A stretch of DNA of 64,000 nucleotides from Aureimonas frigidaquae. Its GTDB lineage: Bacteria; Pseudomonadota; Alphaproteobacteria; Rhizobiales; Rhizobiaceae. Below the pieces are notes generated by a model. That model did not search any database, was not told where the DNA came from, and saw only the letters and a program-made list of their open reading frames with translations. The stretch spans positions 248,001 through 312,000 of the forward strand of contig NZ_BBWR01000002.1 in assembly GCF_001463905.1 (NCBI RefSeq), given 5' to 3'. Position 1 is the first letter of the stretch. Every line of letters begins with the position of its first letter. A program made the translations under genes and the position numbers. Below are positions 46,256 to 55,417 of this stretch, piece after piece.

Positions 46256-47275
46256 CTAACGCCAGCCGAGCGCGGGCGCGACATGGGTCAGGATCTGCTC
46301 GATCACATGGGCGTTGTACTCGACCCCGAGTTGGTTCGGCACGGTCAGGAGCAGCGTGTCGGCGGCGGCGATGGCTTCATCACCCGCAAGCTGTTCGATG
46401 AGCACATCCGGTTCGGCCGCATAGCTTCGCCCGAAGACCGATCGCGTATCGTCGATGATGCCGATCTGGTCCGAACCACCGGACCGCTGGCCGAAATAGG
46501 CACGGTCCCGTTCATCGGTGATGGCAAAGATGCTCCGGCTGACCGAGACGCGCGGCGTGCGCGCATGGCCCGCTTGTGCCCATGCCGCGCGAAAGGCCTG
46601 TATCTGCTCGGCTTGCTGGATATGGAACGGTTTCCCGCTTTCGTCCGTCTTCAGGGTCGAACTCTGGAGGTTCATACCCTGCTGAGCAGCCCAGACGGCC
46701 GTCGCGTTGGAGGACGCGCCCCACCAGATCCTGTCGCGCAGGCCCGGCGCATGGGGCTCGAGCCGCAGGCGGCCGGGCGGGTTCGGGAACATGGGCTGCG
46801 GGTTCGGTTCGGCAAAGCCGTTCCCCTTCAGCACCTCCAGCAGAACCTCGGCATGGCTGCGCGCCATGTCCGAGGCGTCCTGCCCCTCGGCCGGCTGATA
46901 GCCGAAGTAGCGCCAGCCATCGATCACCTGCTCGGGCGAGCCGCGGCTGATGCCCAGTTGCAGGCGGCCGCCTGAAATGAGATCCGCAGCGCCCGCATCC
47001 TCCGCCATATAGAGGGGGTTCTCGTAACGCATGTCGATCACGGCGGTGCCGAGTTCTATTCTGCGGGTCTTTGCAGCGGCCGCGGCCAGCAGCGGAAAGG
47101 GCGAGGCCAGTTGCCGCGCAAAATGGTGCACGCGGAAATAGGCGCCATCGGCGCCGAGCTCCTCGGCGGCCACCGCAAGTTCGATGGATTGCAGGAGCGC
47201 GTCGGCGGCCGAGCGCGTGCCCGACCCCTGCGCCGGCGACCAGTGCCCGAAGGATAGAAAGCCGATCGACTTCAT
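46256..47275 (-). CDS. Luciferase-like (LLM) flavin-dependent monooxygenase
   Basis: 339-residue TIM-barrel FMN-dependent oxidoreductase. Marks: [12 protein letters not shown] start, [17 protein letters not shown] near 36, [21 protein letters not shown] near 75 and the [17 protein letters not shown] flavin-site region near 101. Group is close to alkanal/FMN-dependent oxidoreductases of unknown substrate. Single gene, divergent from the amide operon leader, so shared control is possible but not shown. Confidence 0.85.
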
Positions 47276-47471
47276 GATTCTTGACCTCTGCCTGCGGCGC
47301 TGCGGCCGGGCGATTTTCCGTTCTACGTCACATAATGCGCTTGGCTTGCATCATAAACGGCGCTTTGCGCGCCAAAGGCTGAACGGTCCGTCGCCATTGT
47401 GATCAAATGGAAGGCACACGCGCTGCGTGCAGCAAATGCAACTTGACGCTCATGCCGTCTCTCGTATCATC

Positions 47472-47499
47472 GCTGTCACATAGGCCTTCGGGCCACGGC
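47472..47499 (+). promoter_or_regulatory. Leader hairpin upstream of the AmiC-like gene
   Basis: GCTGT (47472-47476) pairs with ACGGC (47495-47499), enclosing GGCC-TTCG-GGCC (47483-47494). It stands seven bases before the leader terminator and is a candidate element for AmiR-type recognition. I could not identify the two hexaloop hairpins of the ANTAR consensus with confidence. Confidence 0.4.
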
Positions 47500-47505
47500 A
47501 TTCGC

Positions 47506-47549
47506 GCCCCGTTCACCGCATGACCATGCGGTGTGCGGGGCTTTTTATT
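47506..47549 (+). terminator. Leader terminator in front of the amide operon
   Basis: GCCCCG-tt-CACCGCAT (5' arm) pairs with ATGCGGTG-tg-CGGGGC (3' arm), GACC loop, then TTTTTATT. About 14 pairs in total. It ends only 12 bases before the first gene (47562) and so must be read through for the operon to be expressed; this is the layout of an antitermination-controlled leader. Confidence 0.85.
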
Positions 47550-47561
47550 GGCAGGTCAGAC

Positions 47562-48656
47562 ATGCGACGGCCCATTCCCCTCGGCATCCTGTTCTCGCGC
47601 AGCGGCGATTACGCGCTCCTGTCGAGGACAAGCCACGACGGCGCCATGGCCGGCATCGAGGCCGTCAACGCGGATCCGCGCCGGACGATCCGCTTCGAGC
47701 CGCAGGAGCGCGACCCCGGGAGCCGGGCCGACGCCTATGGCCCGCTCTGCGCCGAGCTGTTGCAGATCGGCGGGCTCCGGCACATTGTCGGTTGCGTGAC
47801 CTCCTCGTCCCGCAAGGAAGTGATCCCGCTCATGGAACGTCACGAGGCCATGCTCTGGTACGCCGCACCCTATGAAGGGTTCGAGGCGAATGAACGGGTC
47901 ATCTACACCCATGCCTGCCCGAACCAGCATATCGTGCCGCTGCTCAACTACGCGCTGCCGCGCCATGGCCGGGAGGTTTTCCTGCTTGGATCGAATTACG
48001 TCTGGGGCTGGGAGAACAACCGTGTCGCGCGGGAGATCGTGGGCGCGTGGAACGGGCGCATTCTGGGCGAACGCTTCCTGCCGGTGGGCGATGGCGATGT
48101 CTCGCGCATCATTGCAGAGATCCGCGCGACCCGCCCCACGTTGATCGTCAACAACATGATCGGCCAGTCATCCTATGCGCTGCTGCGCGCACTCGCCGAG
48201 CTCGGGCGGGAGGATCCCGCCTTCCGGCCGGATCGCTGCCCGGTGCTGAGCTGCGATCTGATGGAGACGGAACTGCCGGCTTTGGCCGGCGCTGCGGAGG
48301 GCCATCTCGTCGTTGGCCCCTATTTCGCCGATCTCCAGCCACCCCGCTCGTCGATGGAAGCGGCCGCGCATGCCAGCGTGCTGGTGCTTGCCGATCTTAT
48401 CGAGGCTGCGGACAGCGCGGACCCGGCCGCGCTGCGGCGCTTCATCGGGACGCGCGTCCACCAGACGCCGCTCGGTCGCCTGCAAATCGACGCGCGGACG
48501 CAGCACAGCCACCTTCCGGTTCTGGTCGGGCGCATCACGGGGAATCGTTTCGTGCCGGTCTGGCAGAGCCGCGAGCCCATCGCACCCGATCCCTACCTTT
48601 CCCATCACGATGCGCGCGGCCCCCTGGCAGAGCGCCCCTTGCGGGTGGTCTCATGA
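47562..48656 (+). CDS. AmiC-like amide sensor (periplasmic-binding-protein fold)
   Basis: 364-residue cytoplasmic ligand sensor of the AmiC/UrtA-like type; no signal peptide. Typical stretches are IPLGILFSRSGDYALLSRT at the start, VGCVTSSSRKEVIPLMERH near 82, LWYAAPYEGFE near 103 and LGSNYVWGWENNRVAREIV near 145. In Pseudomonas, AmiC binds amides and releases the antiterminator AmiR. ATG 47562 follows the leader terminator; ATG 47520 lies inside the terminator stem and is unlikely. Stop overlaps the regulator start (ATGA). Confidence 0.87.
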   Translation: MRRPIPLGILFSRSGDYALLSRTSHDGAMAGIEAVNADPRRTIRFEPQERDPGSRADAYGPLCAELLQIGGLRHIVGCVTSSSRKEVIPLMERHEAMLWYAAPYEGFEANERVIYTHACPNQHIVPLLNYALPRHGREVFLLGSNYVWGWENNRVAREIVGAWNGRILGERFLPVGDGDVSRIIAEIRATRPTLIVNNMIGQSSYALLRALAELGREDPAFRPDRCPVLSCDLMETELPALAGAAEGHLVVGPYFADLQPPRSSMEAAAHASVLVLADLIEAADSADPAALRRFIGTRVHQTPLGRLQIDARTQHSHLPVLVGRITGNRFVPVWQSREPIAPDPYLSHHDARGPLAERPLRVVS

Positions 48657-49258
48657 GGACGGGCGTCGGCATTCCGCATCTTGGCGGCGCGCAGGCCTTT
48701 GTCCTGCACCGTGAGCACCAGGACTGCACCACGCTGATCCGCCAGCTCGGTGCCATCGGCCTGGAGACGACCGCCGCCTGGCCCGAGCTCCCGCCGCAAG
48801 CCATGCTGGCGGACTTCGTCTTCTTCGATGCCGATATGGGCTTCGACCAGCAGATGCCATGGCCGACCGGGCAAGCGCCGATGCCGCTTATCGCCATGAT
48901 GGGCAGCGAGGCCCCGGGTCGGATCGAATGGGCGTTGCGCCAGCGGGCGGACGCGCACCTGACCAAGCCGCTGCGCAATTCGGGCGTCTATGCCGCGCTC
49001 GTCATCGCGCGTCAGCGCTTCGACGAACGCGCCGGCCTGATGCGTGAGATCGCCGCGCTGCGCGCGCAGGTCGATGAGCGGCGCACCGTGCTGCAGGCGC
49101 TGCTGCGCCTGACCCATGAGGGCCTGAGCGAGGCTGAGGCCTATGACCGGCTGCGGCGCACCGCCATGGACCGGCGCATCACCATCGAACAGGCAGCGGC
49201 GACCCTGGTTGCCGGACCATCCGCGGGAGGTGCGCGTGAGCGAACCCGTCGCCTTTGA
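48653..49258 (+). CDS. AmiR-like ANTAR antiterminator
   Basis: 201-residue RNA-binding regulator: pseudo-receiver domain (residues 15-125), coiled coil (REIAALRAQVDERR) and a C-terminal ANTAR three-helix domain (LQALLRLTHEGLSEAEAYDRL and RRTAMDRRITIEQAAATLV). The phospho-acceptor position appears as FFDADMGF, so an Asp is present, but AmiR works by binding to AmiC. Start is the ATG in the ATGA overlap; its end overlaps the next permease by 23 bases. It most likely acts at the leader terminator 47506-47549. Confidence 0.88.
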   Translation: MRTGVGIPHLGGAQAFVLHREHQDCTTLIRQLGAIGLETTAAWPELPPQAMLADFVFFDADMGFDQQMPWPTGQAPMPLIAMMGSEAPGRIEWALRQRADAHLTKPLRNSGVYAALVIARQRFDERAGLMREIAALRAQVDERRTVLQALLRLTHEGLSEAEAYDRLRRTAMDRRITIEQAAATLVAGPSAGGARERTRRL

Positions 49259-50138
49259 CATGACCGTCGCCACCGGCGGGCCACCGCCTCAGGGGGTGAT
49301 GAAGCGTCTCCTGCGCCGTCCGCTGGCTGTGGCGGGCCTGGCGATCATTTTCGGCACGGTGGCTGCGGCCCTGCTCGCCCCCGTCATCGCGCCCTTCGAT
49401 CCGAACGCGCAGTTCTTCGACGCGCTGTCCTTGACCGGCGAGCCCCTGGCGCCCAACGCCACCTACTGGCTTGGCAGCGACCTCCTGGGCCGGGATCTTC
49501 TGTCCCGCATGCTTTACGGGGCCCGGACATCCCTGCTCATCGGCGTGGTGGCGAATGGCGCAGCCCTTCTGATCGGCACGATGGTCGGGGTGACGGCGGG
49601 CTATGTCCGCGGATGGACCGGCGCGGTGCTGATGCGCTTCACGGACCTGATGATGTCCTTCCCGGCGCTGCTCCTGGCCATCTGTCTGGCGGCCATCCTG
49701 CGCCCGAGCCTGTGGATCGTCGCGCTCGTCATTGCGCTGGTCAACTGGGTGCAGGTGGCCCGCGTCATCTATACCGAGACGAGCGCCATCGCCGAACGGG
49801 AGTTCATTGCGGCCGAACGCACCCTCGGCGCGTCGGGCCCGCGCATCCTGTTCCGGCATATCCTGCCCCACCTCCTGTCCACAGTGATCGTGTGGGGTAC
49901 GCTCGGCATCTCCACCACAGTGCTACTGGAAGCCACGCTCTCCTATCTCGGCGTCGGCGTTCAGCCGCCCATGGCGTCCTGGGGCAACATCATCTTCGAG
50001 AACCAGACCTACTTCCAGGTCGCCCCCTGGCTGGTCTTCTTTCCCGGCGCGGCAATCCTGATCGTGGCGCTGGCCTTCAACCTCGTGGGCGACGCGCTGC
50101 GCGACGTGCTCGATCCGACCGAGCGGGGGCGTGACTGA
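49236..50138 (+). CDS. Peptide/nickel-type ABC permease (DppC class)
   Basis: 300-residue inner-membrane permease. GTG 49236 lies five bases after GGGAGG and is preferred; the frame is open to 49143 within the regulator gene. Features: PFDPNAQF and HxLGSD-like WLGSDLLGRDLLSRMLYGAR (near 83), docking loop near 187 (EFIAAERTLGASGPRILF), and the SYLGVGVQPP block. Class C comes before class B here, the reverse of the usual Dpp/Opp order. Confidence 0.92.
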   Translation: MSEPVAFDMTVATGGPPPQGVMKRLLRRPLAVAGLAIIFGTVAAALLAPVIAPFDPNAQFFDALSLTGEPLAPNATYWLGSDLLGRDLLSRMLYGARTSLLIGVVANGAALLIGTMVGVTAGYVRGWTGAVLMRFTDLMMSFPALLLAICLAAILRPSLWIVALVIALVNWVQVARVIYTETSAIAEREFIAAERTLGASGPRILFRHILPHLLSTVIVWGTLGISTTVLLEATLSYLGVGVQPPMASWGNIIFENQTYFQVAPWLVFFPGAAILIVALAFNLVGDALRDVLDPTERGRD

Positions 50139-51058
50139 TGGCCCTGTACATCGCACGCCGCCTCGTCCAGGCGGCGCTGATCCTCCTCGGCGTATCGGCC
50201 ATCACCTTCGCGCTGCTCTACTGGCTGCCCGCCGATCCCGTCCGCCAGATCGCCGGCCGCTCTGCCACGCCGCAGACGGTCGCCAACATCCGGGCGCAGC
50301 TCGGCCTCGACCAGCCATTCTTCGTCCAGTATGGCCGCTACCTCGCCAATCTCCTGCAGGGCGATCTCGGCCGCTCCTACCTGCAGCGCTCGGAGGTCAG
50401 CGAGTTGATCGCAGCCCGCCTGCCCGCGACGCTGATCCTGATGGGCGCGGGCATCCTGTGCGAATTGCTGATCGGCGTGACCATGGGCCTCTGGGCGGCC
50501 GTGCGGCGCGGCACCGTAACGGACCGCGCTTTGATGGTCGGCTCCTTCGTCGGCGTGTCTGCCCCACAATTCGTGGTCGGCCTTCTGCTTCTCTATGTCT
50601 TCGGCGTGCGGCTCGGATTGCTGCCGATCTCGGGCTACGGAAGCGCGGCCCATATCGTCCTGCCGGCGCTGACGCTCGGCATATTGGGGGCCGGCTGGTA
50701 TGCCCGCATGGTCCGCTCGTCGATGATCGACGTCCTGCGCCAGGACTTCATCCGCACGGCCCGTGCCAAGGGCCTGTCGCGCCGCGTCGTTCTGTTCCGG
50801 CACGCACTGCCCAACGCCCTGCTGCCGATCGTCGCCATGATCGGCATCGACATCGGCGTCTTCATGAGCGGCATCGTCGTGGTGGAAAGCGTCTTCGGCT
50901 GGCCGGGTATCGGCCAGCTCGCCTGGCAGGCCATCCAGCGCGTCGACATTCCCATCATCATGGGCGTCACGCTGGTGTCCGCCTTCGCCATCGTCCTCGG
51001 CAATCTCGTCGCGGACCTTCTTGCCCCCTTCATCGACCCCCGCATCAAGCTCAGGTGA
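50138..51058 (+). CDS. Peptide/nickel-type ABC permease (DppB class)
   Basis: 306-residue inner-membrane permease, starting at the last base of the previous stop. Features: QAALILLGVSAITFALLYWLP at the start, GDLGRSYLQRSEV near 76, docking loop near 205 (DFIRTARAKGLSRRVVLFRH) and the GIVVVESVFGWPGIGQL block near 247. Partner of the DppC-class protein. Confidence 0.93.
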   Translation: MALYIARRLVQAALILLGVSAITFALLYWLPADPVRQIAGRSATPQTVANIRAQLGLDQPFFVQYGRYLANLLQGDLGRSYLQRSEVSELIAARLPATLILMGAGILCELLIGVTMGLWAAVRRGTVTDRALMVGSFVGVSAPQFVVGLLLLYVFGVRLGLLPISGYGSAAHIVLPALTLGILGAGWYARMVRSSMIDVLRQDFIRTARAKGLSRRVVLFRHALPNALLPIVAMIGIDIGVFMSGIVVVESVFGWPGIGQLAWQAIQRVDIPIIMGVTLVSAFAIVLGNLVADLLAPFIDPRIKLR

Positions 51059-51094
51059 TCTGTCGTCCCCTGCCTTCCTAACAAGGAGCATCGC

Positions 51095-52732
51095 GTGACC
51101 CGAACCTTCCGAACCTCCATCCTGTCCACCGCCCTCGCCGCCATCCTCGCCGTCGGAGCGCCGGCCATCGCGCAGGAGGCCGCTCCCAAGGCGGGCGGCG
51201 ATATCGTCATTACCTACAAGGACGATGTCGCCACGCTCGACCCGGCCATCGGCTACGACTGGCAGAACTGGTCGATGATCAAGAGCCTCTTCGACGCGCT
51301 CATGGACTACGAGCCGGGCACCACGGAGCTGCGCCCCGACCTTGCCGAAAGCTACGAGATCTCCGACGACGGCACGGTCTTCACCTTCCACCTGCGGGAC
51401 GGGGTGACATTCCACAATGGCCGCGCCCTGACGGCCGAGGACGTCAAATACACGCTGGACAGGGTGACCAACCCGGAAACGCAAAGCCCGGGCGCCGGCT
51501 TCTTCGGGTCCATCAAGGGCTATGACGATGTGGCCACCGGCAAGGCGACGAGCCTGTCCGGCGTGACGACGCCCGATGCCCGGACGGTGCGGATCGAGCT
51601 TTCGCGGCCCGATGCGACCTTCCTGCATGTGATGGCACTGAACTTCGCCCATGTCGTCCCACGTGAGGCGGTGGAAGAGTTCGGCCCCGATTTCGGCCGG
51701 CACCCGGTCGGCACGGGCGCCTTCAAACTGGCCGACTGGACGCTCGGCCAGCAGCTCGTCTTCGAAAAGAACGCAAACTACTGGCGCCAGGGCGTGCCGT
51801 ATCTGGACAGCATCACCTTCCAGATCGGGCAGGAGCCCATCGTCGCGCTGCTGCGCCTGCAGCAGGGAGAGGTCGACATTCCGGGCGACGGCATCCCGCC
51901 CGCCAAGTTCCAGGAGGTCATGAACGATCCGGAACAGAAGGCCCGTGTGGTGGAAGGCGGCCAGCTCCACACCGGCTATGTCACGATGAACGTGCGGATG
52001 GAGCCCTTCGACAAGCTGCCCGTGCGCAAGGCCGTGAACATGGCCATCAACAAGGACCGTATCGTCCAGATCATCAACGGGCGTGCGGTCCCGGCCAACC
52101 AGCCCCTGCCCCCGTCCATGCCGGGTTACGTCAAGGACTATGAGGGCTATGCCTACGATCCGGAAGGCGCAAAGGCGCTTCTGGCGGAAGCCGGCCTTGC
52201 CGATGGTTTCGACACCGAGCTCTACGTCATGAACACCGATCCGCAGCCGCGCATCGCCCAGGCGATCCAGCAGGATCTGGCCGCCATCGGCATCCGGGCA
52301 TCGATCCGCTCGCTGGCGCAGGCCAACGTGATCGAGGCCGGCGGCACAGAGGACGGCGCGCCGATGATCTGGTCCGGAGGCATGGCCTGGATCGCCGACT
52401 TCCCGGATCCGAGCAACTTCTACGGCCCGATCCTCGGCTGCGCCGGCGCGGTGCCCGGCGGCTGGAACTGGTCCTGGTACTGCAACGAGGCGCTCGACGC
52501 CCGGGCGGCCGAGGCGGACGCCATCGTCGATCCGGCCCGCGCCGAGGAACGCTACGCCGCCTGGGGCTCGATCTACACCGACATCATGAAGGATGCGCCC
52601 TGGGTGCCCGTCTTCAACGAGCAGCGCTTCACCATGAAGAGTGCCCGCATGCAGGGAGCGGACAACCTCTTCGTCGATCCGGTCCACATCCCGATCAACT
52701 ACGATTATGTGAGCGTCAGCGATGTGCAGTAA
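51095..52732 (+). CDS. ABC transporter substrate-binding protein, family 5
   Basis: 545-residue periplasmic binding protein of the peptide/nickel class. Start GTG 51095 with AAGGAG six bases upstream. Signal peptide runs to PAIAQEAA (near 28). Class marks include DVATLDPAIGYDWQNW, DGTVFTFHLRDGVTFHNGR near 92 and the ANYWRQGVPYLDSI region near 228. Ligand presumably an amide-bearing compound because the next gene, which overlaps by 11 bases, is a formamidase-type amidase. Confidence 0.92.
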   Translation: MTRTFRTSILSTALAAILAVGAPAIAQEAAPKAGGDIVITYKDDVATLDPAIGYDWQNWSMIKSLFDALMDYEPGTTELRPDLAESYEISDDGTVFTFHLRDGVTFHNGRALTAEDVKYTLDRVTNPETQSPGAGFFGSIKGYDDVATGKATSLSGVTTPDARTVRIELSRPDATFLHVMALNFAHVVPREAVEEFGPDFGRHPVGTGAFKLADWTLGQQLVFEKNANYWRQGVPYLDSITFQIGQEPIVALLRLQQGEVDIPGDGIPPAKFQEVMNDPEQKARVVEGGQLHTGYVTMNVRMEPFDKLPVRKAVNMAINKDRIVQIINGRAVPANQPLPPSMPGYVKDYEGYAYDPEGAKALLAEAGLADGFDTELYVMNTDPQPRIAQAIQQDLAAIGIRASIRSLAQANVIEAGGTEDGAPMIWSGGMAWIADFPDPSNFYGPILGCAGAVPGGWNWSWYCNEALDARAAEADAIVDPARAEERYAAWGSIYTDIMKDAPWVPVFNEQRFTMKSARMQGADNLFVDPVHIPINYDYVSVSDVQ

Positions 52733-53666
52733 TTGCGACTATACGATCCACGGTCGCCACTTCCATTATGGCTGGGACAATTCTTTGCCGCCCGCCGAGC
52801 GGGTGGCGCCCGGCGCGCGCATCGAGTTCCAGTGTCATGATTCCTCCGGCGGGCAGTTGACGGCGCAGTCCGGCGTGGCGGACATCGCCGCGCTGGATTT
52901 CGGCCGCATCAACCCGGTGACCGGTCCCATCCACGTGGACGGGGCCGAACCCGGCGATGCCTTGAAGATCACGATCGAGGAGTTCAAACCGTCCGGCTTC
53001 GGCTGGACGGCGAATATCCCCGGCTTCGGCCTTCTGGCCGATCAGTTCACCGAGCCGGCGCTGGCGCTCTGGTCCTATGATGCGGCATCGCTGGCGCCGG
53101 CCGCCTTCGGCGTGCATGGGCGCGTGCCGCTCAAGCCTTTCGCCGGAACGATCGGCGTGGCCCCGGCCGAGCCGGGCCACCATTCCGTCGTGCCGCCGCG
53201 CCGGGTGGGCGGCAATCTCGATATCCGCGATCTGTCGGCGGGGACGGTTCTCTACCTGCCGGTGGAGGTTGCCGGGGCGCTCTTCTCCGTGGGCGATACG
53301 CATGCCGCCCAGGGCGACGGCGAAGTCTGCGGCACGGCCATCGAAAGCCCTATGAACGTCGTCCTGACGCTCGACCTCGTCAAGGATGCCCGGCTGAAGA
53401 TGCCGCGTTTCACGACGCAAGGTCCGGTGACGCGGCATCTCGACGCCAAGGGCTACGAGGTGACGACGGGTGTCGGCGCCGACCTGATGGAGGGCGCGCG
53501 CCAGGCCGTTGCCGACATGGTGGAGCTCCTGGCGGGGCGGTACAACCTCAACCCGGTGGATGCCTATATGCTCGTATCGACCTGCGGGGACCTGCGGATC
53601 AGCGAGATCGTGGACCAGCCGAACTGGGTCGTGTCCTTCTACTTCCCACGCTGCGTGTTCGAATGA
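52722..53666 (+). CDS. Acetamidase/formamidase family amidohydrolase
   Basis: 314-residue cytoplasmic enzyme of the FmdA/AmdA family, which releases ammonia from formamide, acetamide or related short amides. Marks: ECHD-like FQCHDSSGGQLT near 36, the GPIHVDGAEPGDALKI block near 67, GVHGRVP near 128, VGGNLDIRDLSAGTVLYLPV near 166 and GDTHAAQGDGEVCGTAIE near 193. Overlaps the binding-protein gene by 11 bases and the ATPase gene by four, so it is made together with the transporter. Confidence 0.92.
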   Translation: MCSNCDYTIHGRHFHYGWDNSLPPAERVAPGARIEFQCHDSSGGQLTAQSGVADIAALDFGRINPVTGPIHVDGAEPGDALKITIEEFKPSGFGWTANIPGFGLLADQFTEPALALWSYDAASLAPAAFGVHGRVPLKPFAGTIGVAPAEPGHHSVVPPRRVGGNLDIRDLSAGTVLYLPVEVAGALFSVGDTHAAQGDGEVCGTAIESPMNVVLTLDLVKDARLKMPRFTTQGPVTRHLDAKGYEVTTGVGADLMEGARQAVADMVELLAGRYNLNPVDAYMLVSTCGDLRISEIVDQPNWVVSFYFPRCVFE

Positions 53667-55417
53667 TGGACAGGACGGTCGAAGCCGGGCCATTGCTCGA
53701 TGTTGCGGACCTGACGGTCACGGTCGGCGGCACGCGGCATCCGCGCGCCGTCGTCGACGGCCTGAGCTTTTCCCTCCAACGGGGCGAGACACTCTGCCTT
53801 GCCGGAGAATCCGGATCAGGAAAATCCGTTACCTCACTGGCAATCATGGGTCTTTTGCCGCGGCCGGCCACCCGGCTTGCCGCCGGCTCGATCCGTCTGG
53901 CCGGCCAGGAGCTGACGCAGCTGGCCGAACCGCAGATGCAGGCCATCCGCGGCGCGCGCATTGCGATGATCTTTCAGGAGCCGATGACCTCGCTGAACCC
54001 GGTCCTGACGATCGGGCGGCAATTGACGGAAACCGTCCTGGCGCATCGCGGTGTCCCGGCCGCGGAGGCGCGCCGCATGGCCATTTCCGCGCTCGACGCC
54101 GTGCGCATACCGCGTGCTGCCGAGCGCATGGGCGCCTACCCGCATGAAATGTCCGGCGGCCAGCGCCAGCGCGTCATGATCGCCATGGCCTTGATGCTGC
54201 GCCCGGATGTCCTGATCGCCGACGAGCCGACCACGGCGCTCGACGTCACGGTGCAGGCCCAGGTGCTCGATCTCCTGCGCGAGCTGCAATCCGACCTTGG
54301 CACGGCCATTCTTCTGATCACGCACGATATGGGCGTCGTGGCGCAGATGGGTGCGCGTGTCGTTGTCATGCGGCACGGCCGCAAGGTTGAGGAGAACACC
54401 ACTGCCGCCTTCTTCCGCGCGCAGGAGACAGCTTATGCACGGGACCTCCTCGCGGCCGTTCCACGGATCGGCGCCGGACCCGGCCACCAGCCCACGCGCC
54501 AGCTTGCGCCGGCCGCGCCCGTGCTCGACGTGCGCGGGTTGACGGTCAGCTATCCCGGCCAGTCCGGGCTTCTCATCCGCAAGGCGTCGCCGGTCCAGGC
54601 GGTCAAGGGCGTGTCCTTCCAAGTCGCAGCGGGTGAGACGTTCAGCCTGGTGGGGGAATCGGGCTGCGGCAAATCCACGACGGCGCGTGCGCTGATGGGG
54701 CTCGTGCCCTTCGGCGGAGAGGTCATCTTGGCCGGGGCGCCCCTGTCGGGGCGCGACGCGGCCTCCGCCCGCCAAGCGCGGCGCGATCTGTCCATGATCT
54801 TCCAGGATCCCTACGCCTCGCTGGACCCACGCATGACAGCGGGCGATCTCGTCCGCGAGCCGCTCGACATCCATCGTATCGGAACCCTGCCCGAACGCCG
54901 CGACCGCGTGGCAGACCTGTTCGCTCGCGTCGGCCTGCCGCAGGATGCGATGGGACGCTACCCGCACGAATTCTCCGGCGGCCAGCGGCAGCGCCTGGCC
55001 ATTGCCCGCGCACTGGCGCTCCGGCCCCGGCTGATCGTGGCCGATGAAAGCGTGTCGGCGCTCGACGTTTCCGTCAAGGCGCGCGTCCTGGATCTCCTGC
55101 GTGTCCTGCAGGCCGAGTTCGGCATCGCCTACCTGTTCATCAGCCACGACATGGCCGTGGTCGAAAACATCTCGGACCGGGTGGCGGTCATGCTGAACGG
55201 GCGCATCGTGGAGACCGCGCCGCGCGACGTGCTCTTCAACGATCCGCGTCATCCCTACACGCAAAGGCTGATCGAGGCCGTGCCGGTGCCCGATCCCGCA
55301 GCTCGGCCGCGCCGGCGCCATGGCGGAGCCGCGCCTGCCGGCGGCGAGCTGCCCACCCCCTCCGGCGCATTGGCCGAAATCGCCCCGGGCCATTGGGTCG
55401 CCGGAGCGGCAGCGTGA
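53663..55417 (+). CDS. Fused double-cassette ABC ATPase (DppD-DppF type)
   Basis: 584-residue cytoplasmic ATPase with two complete cassettes: Walker A GESGSGKS near 43 and GESGCGKS near 335; signatures MSGGQRQR and FSGGQRQR; Walker [13 protein letters not shown] and [13 protein letters not shown]-loops ITHD and ISHD. The DESVSALD of the second cassette (DEPVSALD is usual) keeps the catalytic Glu. Last gene of the operon; supplies energy to the two permeases. Confidence 0.93.

Follow-up and report, generated by a model that had tools for sequence, protein, structure and literature searches.

Which compound is taken up by an operon that places an AmiC-like amide sensor and an AmiR-like antiterminator in front of a peptide-type ATP-binding cassette (ABC) importer and an amidase, and how is its expression controlled? 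The question is raised by a locus of Aureimonas frigidaquae (assembly GCF_001463905.1) at positions 47472 to 55417 of the window, by which we mean the whole stretch of 64,000 nucleotides of contig NZ_BBWR01000002.1 (248,001 to 312,000) that was analysed; coordinates are those of the window unless stated otherwise. Comparison with related loci leads us to regard it as an operon that probably scavenges nitrogen from L-amino-acid amides and that its own AmiC/AmiR pair probably switches by antitermination. The system is known and common among soil bacteria, the gene set with AmiC and AmiR being in print and the importer with its amidase having reportedly been described. The point of interest that is left is the leader RNA, whose form recurs in all 100 counted leaders and, as read from their sequences, breaks the published loop rule for ANTAR targets.

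The initial annotation of this locus, whose interpretation is partly supported by what follows, named seven genes and a permease order of C then B, and Pfam and NCBIfam searches of the window proteins bear out both:

47562 to 48656, + strand, AmiC-like amide sensor (Peripla_BP_5/6), 364 amino acids (Pfam)
48653 to 49258, + strand, AmiR-like antiterminator (AmiR_N and ANTAR), 201 amino acids (Pfam)
49236 to 50138, + strand, DppC/OppC-class permease (Pfam, NCBIfam)
50138 to 51058, + strand, DppB-class permease (Pfam, NCBIfam)
51095 to 52732, + strand, SBP_bac_5 binding protein (PDB match 8upi)
52722 to 53666, + strand, FmdA_AmdA-family amidase, 314 amino acids (Pfam)
53663 to 55417, + strand, fused DppD-DppF ATPase with two ABC_tran domains and oligo_HPY (Pfam, NCBIfam)

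The AmiC-like protein has the AmiC fold, with AmiC itself as its best PDB match (1pea, E 1.8e-46), and no signal peptide is evident in it by eye. Both the AmiR_N pseudo-receiver and the ANTAR domain of the AmiR-like protein exceed their family cut-offs, and the protein matches AmiR (1qo0_D, E 1.6e-8). With the listed starts, five of the six gene junctions overlap, in agreement with the mostly overlapping stops and starts first described, and the sole gap, between dppB and the binding-protein gene, is 36 bases. The importer parts are of the Dpp/Opp class, and the operon in the window does not belong with UrtABCDE importers.

In front of these genes lies the region on which the proposed control depends:

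47506 to 47549, + strand, intrinsic terminator (attenuator), stem 47506 to 47541, tail TTTTTATT at 47542 to 47549 (sequence, folding)
47497 to 47508, + strand, putative P2 antiterminator hairpin, GGC-AUUCGC-GCC (conservation in leaders)
47483 to 47494, + strand, P1 hairpin, GGCC-UUCG-GGCC (sequence)

The terminator had been reported to end 12 bases 5' of the AmiC ATG at 47562, and the sequence and the fold of the leader confirm this (47476 to 47565, 90 bases: -40.3 kcal/mol, z -3.2, a stability matched by 3 of 200 shuffles). A simple consensus terminator scan does not list 47506 to 47549, probably because of mismatches in the stem; it lists 8 other sites against 5.3 expected. The 3' GCC of P2 (47506 to 47508) doubles as the 5'-most three bases of that stem, so that the two folds are mutually exclusive. 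This logic of antitermination by mutually exclusive folds has been described for EutV (PMC3369931, PMC8934654).

To follow this arrangement through related operons, 100 non-redundant leaders were counted: 89 of this operon type, 6 of a sister type and 5 of an Urt type. The 89 remained from 102 loci of this type after removal of repeats identical in the last 120 bases, with 74 coming from named records and the window and 15 from other genomes, and a terminator was accepted when 4 or more of 8 bases were T (a narrower T-run rule missed 14 of the 89). GGC-N6-GCC with its GCC at the base of a U-tailed hairpin is present in 89/89 leaders of this type, 6/6 of the sister type and 5/5 of the Urt type, against about 4 of the 89 expected by shuffling (maximum 7). 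A hexaloop hairpin that overlaps the terminator, the mark of an AmiC/AmiR pair, is thus found in every one of the 89, and the initial proposal that the sensor pair probably controls its own operon is well supported by this comparison over all 100 leaders. Outside the count stand a rearranged operon (L138), whose leader carries GGC-AUCCGA-GCC; a locus with a remote AmiC (L072), whose leader has no GGC-N6-GCC; and six plasmid loci read by eye, five of which have the motif, the exception being the Klebsiella one with GGU-AAUGAA-GCC, including A1 and G4 of the loop, before its terminator.

By itself GGCAN5GCC is frequent (38 in the window, 30 expected). The combined P2-plus-terminator pattern occurs once in the 4.1-Mb genome, at the operon in the window, and its backwards control 0 times. 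Within the order, 28 of 297 genomes contain a match to this strict pattern, compared with 5 for the backwards control; specificity is shown within this genome only. As a separate observation, five loci of one genus (L184 to L188 in G359, G260, G283, G342 and G232; f35/g105) carry a compact hairpin-plus-terminator element that begins GGCAAWTGTGCCCCGGTC and ends CGGGGCTTTT.

A 43-row alignment of leaders supports the pairing of P1 and of the outer terminator stem, with pairs formed in 94.9% of cells against 34 to 54% in controls slid by 1 to 3 columns, and with six pairs changed on both sides, a number reached by 1 of 500 shuffles. The P1 of relatives is most often CCGGC-loop-GCCGG (stem CCGGC in 44/79), with pair changes on both sides. 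A P1 stem of at least 4 pairs is found in 79/89 leaders (shuffle mean 20) and of at least 5 in 63 (shuffle mean 5.8), and because the P1 finder also picks up chance stems, we claim P1 only as common. In ten of the 89 no P1 was found, in one of them (L046) solely because the script picked the wrong hairpin as P2.

These features suggest the following course of events. With no ligand, AmiC would hold AmiR, and RNA polymerase starting near 47477 would form the terminator at 47506 to 47549 and mostly stop. Binding of an amide to AmiC would release AmiR, which would attach to the P2 hexaloop (47497 to 47508) while the leader is being made, and since P2 occupies the GCC at 47506 to 47508, the terminator would be unable to close. 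The whole operon, including amiC and amiR, would then be transcribed in a positive feedback. Uptake of the amide would fall to the binding protein together with the DppC/DppB/DppDF importer, and the FmdA_AmdA enzyme would split it into amino acid and ammonia. Amino-acid-amide import and ANTAR antitermination, so far separate pieces of knowledge, would hereby be joined, giving a testable RNA switch in many alphaproteobacteria.

The gene combination had been put forward as undescribed, a claim that fails in two ways: the order is the rule in close relatives, and the gene set is in print (PMC13209695). An AmiC search of 151 genomes gave matches in 101 at E ≤1e-20, UrtA-like proteins included. We fetched 40 stretches, namely the genome's own second locus and 39 of the listed AmiC matches, a biased choice, and 28 of them have the seven-gene order, 6 the sister order, 5 the Urt type and one (L072) another arrangement; a single-protein scan of genome contigs with AmiC found no relative. 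For the neighbourhood search that had been suggested for amiC-amiR-dppCB-fmdA, 12 aligned FmdA proteins were run against named genomes, which confirmed at least 576 relatives, and among the best 80 by amidase similarity exactly amiC-amiR-dppC-dppB-binding protein-fmdA-dppDF is found in 73, which makes the arrangement not unusual and one beyond chance. Two of the other seven are partial (L092 with remnants, L153 on a short contig), three have the importer not beside the amidase (L116, L119, L144) and two are rearranged (L128, L138). The hosts include Aureimonas, Aurantimonas, Mesorhizobium, Aminobacter, Paracoccus, Jannaschia, Kiloniella and a Brucella species. Plasmid records with a match to the amidase number 1170, of which Klebsiella accounts for 754, and one such Klebsiella plasmid locus (L156, 2357 to 9460) runs amiC-amiR-permease-permease-binding protein-FmdA up to an IS26 transposase gene, with no operon ATPase gene listed after it.

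The six sister operons (L058, L060, L063, L065, L066 and L067) have the order amiC-amiR-hydrolase-SBP_bac_5-dppC-dppB-dppD-dppF without FmdA. Their hydrolase is of the proline-iminopeptidase family: the L058 copy scores 251 bits for TIGR01250 against a cut-off of 168, and the other five are 77 to 89% identical to it. Mosaics are also seen: in L128 (7968 to 15546) a sister-type importer is accompanied by both FmdA and the iminopeptidase-family hydrolase, with amiC-amiR not found there, and L138 (5931 to 13058) has amiC-amiR-fmdA with its importer in a different order.

Two ANTAR proteins are found in the window genome, that of the window and one on contig C8, where a second amiC-amiR operon lies at about 239752 to 247318 (6753 to 14319 of L033). 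Like the operon in the window, it has amiC-amiR in front and an FmdA_AmdA amidase, which is 36% identical to the window's; unlike it, it contains Urt importer parts (UrtA-like, UrtB-, UrtC- and UrtE-like, of which only the UrtA-like protein exceeds its family cut-off), with a nitrilase-like gene after the amidase and a leader with two A1/G4 hexaloops. The initial contrast of the importer with Urt-type ones was therefore right, and both kinds occur in this genome.

The substrate is suggested foremost by the binding protein, which is 80.35% identical over 514 amino acids to PDB entry 8upi. That entry in turn shares 98.8% identity with the binding protein that Mesorhizobium norvegicum encodes in its copy of the operon (L084), and binding proteins at 102 of 111 long-match loci are 65.6 to 98.8% identical to it. 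The PDB listing names the molecule only a peptide ABC transporter substrate-binding protein; we take it to be the L-amino-acid-amide binder MeAmi_SBP, encoded in an FmdA_AmdA operon of a Mesorhizobium strain and in complex with L-serinamide. The Biochemistry paper of 2024 on this protein reportedly counts 610 such binding proteins in operons with FmdA_AmdA amidases. The operon in the window belongs to this class, in which an 8upi-related SBP_bac_5 protein, an ABC importer and an FmdA_AmdA amidase stand in one operon, and it resembles the MeAmi_SBP systems in gene set as well as in its 80% identical binding protein; the earlier idea that nitrogen is gained by cleaving a larger amide is consistent with that identity. 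At the position of DppA Arg355, presumably the carboxylate clamp, the binding protein has a gap, and DppA Asp408 aligns with Asp.

The other proteins may be read in the same direction. Sister operons have the proline-iminopeptidase-family hydrolase where this type has the amidase, an independent argument for amino-acid amides; enzymes of this family that act on L-amino-acid amides exist (LaaA), and L128 encodes both kinds of enzyme. In the sensor, positions 83, 85, 104 and 150 presumably line the acetamide pocket of AmiC. At position 83 the P. aeruginosa protein and 5/5 Urt-type sensors have Tyr, 89/89 sensors of this type have V, I, T, L or A, and 6/6 of the sister type have I or L; Ser85, Tyr104 and Tyr150 are kept in 100/100 sensors, a residue pattern that also fits an amino-acid amide.

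Several results weigh against an AmiR-operated switch for amino-acid amides. In the 43-row alignment, partners slid by -1 or -3 still show five pair changes on both sides, further pair types in P1 and terminator are not above shuffles (87 of 500 reach the count), and P2 is invariant and hence has no covariation. A similar Klebsiella operon has been assigned to acetamide uptake, and acetamidase activity was measured in lysates of acetamide-grown cells (PMC13209695). The leaders also depart from the published ANTAR targets, which have two hexaloops with A1 and G4, G4 being the only base-specific contact (PMC8934654). A1 of the P2 loop is present in 86/89 leaders of this type and a purine at position 5 in 86/89, but G4 in 5/89, and the window loop, AUUCGC, lacks it, so that the window leader falls outside the dual-hexaloop A1/G4 targets. 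The P1 loop has 6 bases in only 6 of 79 candidates, and in the window it is the 4-base loop UUCG.

Compared with EutV targets, then, the window leader is alike in its hexaloop across the terminator base with A at loop position 1, whereas leaders of this operon type are unlike them in that G4 is absent in 84/89 and P1 most often has a 7-base loop and otherwise a loop of another length, or was not found. The 7-base loop occurs in 39 leaders, and in 38 of these its fourth base is G. Among Urt-type leaders, A1 and G4 are both present in the upstream hexaloop of 5/5, and G4 in P2 of 3/5, and in the Urt-type leader of the window genome both hexaloops have A1 and G4. On the protein side, EutV residue numbers were transferred to AmiR by counting from Tyr164, not via an alignment with EutV. 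At the position so matched to Lys149 of EutV, a G4 contact, P. aeruginosa AmiR has Lys and 0 of 100 rows do; in this type, the Tyr164 position is Tyr or Phe in 89/89, and Arg168 and Met172 are each kept in 88/89. Loss of Lys149 alone does not explain the difference in loops, since the Urt type has the same loss. We offer only tentatively, and with more doubt than confidence, the suggestion that AmiR of these operons reads a different RNA code, namely a hexaloop that overlaps the terminator, with A1, a purine at position 5 and no G4, and with P1 altered or dispensable. Were this so, the two AmiC-AmiR-leader pairs in the window genome would be kept apart, since the leader of the Urt type has two A1/G4 hexaloops. 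The leader, with G4 missing and a non-standard P1, tests the present ANTAR target rule, and searches based on that rule would miss this group.

Among other explanations, the same switch might serve a short aliphatic amide (acetamide, formamide), as in Pseudomonas, in line with the FmdA_AmdA family name and the AmiC/AmiR homology. In the P. aeruginosa amiE operon, whose amidase is of a different family, sensor and antiterminator belong to the same families as in the window and a leader terminator is present, but that terminator guards amiE and the one in the window guards amiC-amiR and the importer. The target of AmiR in P. aeruginosa is the amiE leader (PMC3369931). A short amide would also accord with PMC13209695 (2026), in which enterobacterial plasmids are described that join amiC-amiR to a "cluster 5" importer and to an acetamidase gene. 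The operon of the Klebsiella KOS9 plasmid in that paper resembles the one in the window in having amiC, amiR, an amidase gene, two permeases, a binding protein and an ATPase, and differs in that it is interpreted as serving acetamide uptake and that leader analysis is absent from the sections of the paper covered. Besides the acetamidase activity, the only acetamidase gene found in that Klebsiella strain lies in such an operon; its growth on acetamide could not be tested (PMC13209695). We infer that the KOS9 amidase belongs to the FmdA_AmdA family, and the present results bear on whether enterobacterial plasmid acetamidase operons actually serve amino-acid amides. For the operon in the window, a short amide is unlikely: the binding protein is 80% identical to 8upi, sensor Tyr83, which the Urt-type operon retains, is missing from 89/89, sister operons have an aminopeptidase-family hydrolase, the genome already possesses an Urt-type amide operon, and the amidase scores 119 bits for the formamidase FmdA family (NCBIfam NF045496), below the cut-off of 500.

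The terminator could also be a fixed attenuator, or be bound by a factor other than AmiR, with AmiR acting elsewhere. The published A1/G4 dual-hexaloop rule is not followed by the leader, and the AmiR residue matched by counting to EutV Lys149 is non-Lys in all 100 rows, as this explanation would have it. We nevertheless hold it to be distinctly improbable, for the P2/terminator overlap is kept in 100/100 leaders directly before amiC-amiR, the combined pattern is found nowhere else in the genome, and the Tyr164 position is always Tyr or Phe and the Met172 position Met in 88/89 of this type.

The peptide/nickel class of the permeases and the ATPase would fit an ordinary di- or oligopeptide importer that stands beside the amidase by accident, but this is very hard to credit: the amidase is inside the operon in 73/80 loci (loci selected by amidase similarity) and the binding protein scores 974 bits to 8upi against 210 to DppA.

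An operon for L-amino-acid amides with its own switch thus being our preferred reading, some features of its surroundings can be added. Upstream and divergent from it is a luciferase-like monooxygenase gene (46256 to 47275, - strand). This gene and a downstream YeeE-like gene were dropped as operon partners, as neither is in the tblastn listing of 40 relative loci, and a role of the terminator for the upstream gene was dropped because that gene is on the opposite strand. An Rfam search of 47200 to 47700 (E up to 1) gave only Atu_C7, which was rejected at 14.4 bits against a cut-off of 45. Two sites precede the leader:

47443 to 47470, + strand, sigma-70-like promoter site TTGACG-16-TATCAT (consensus scan)
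47424 to 47440, strand not assigned, TGC-N11-GCA site (sequence pattern)

The promoter scan found one site against 1.6 in shuffles, which alone is no evidence; support for a promoter here comes from relatives, as TTGAC precedes the hairpin in 92 leaders and lies 45 to 64 bases before it in 72 of these, the distance in the window being 54. No + strand open reading frame of at least 90 amino acids ends between the promoter-like site and the terminator. The TGC-N11-GCA site, which we take to resemble the NtrC consensus, is doubtful in the window because it is so near the -35 box. Urt-type leaders have such sites from -320 to -121 relative to the amiC start in 0/5, but over all 100 leaders 35 have them there (shuffle mean 9.7, maximum 17), many at -150 to -190, and they would fit a possible second, nitrogen control of the promoter.

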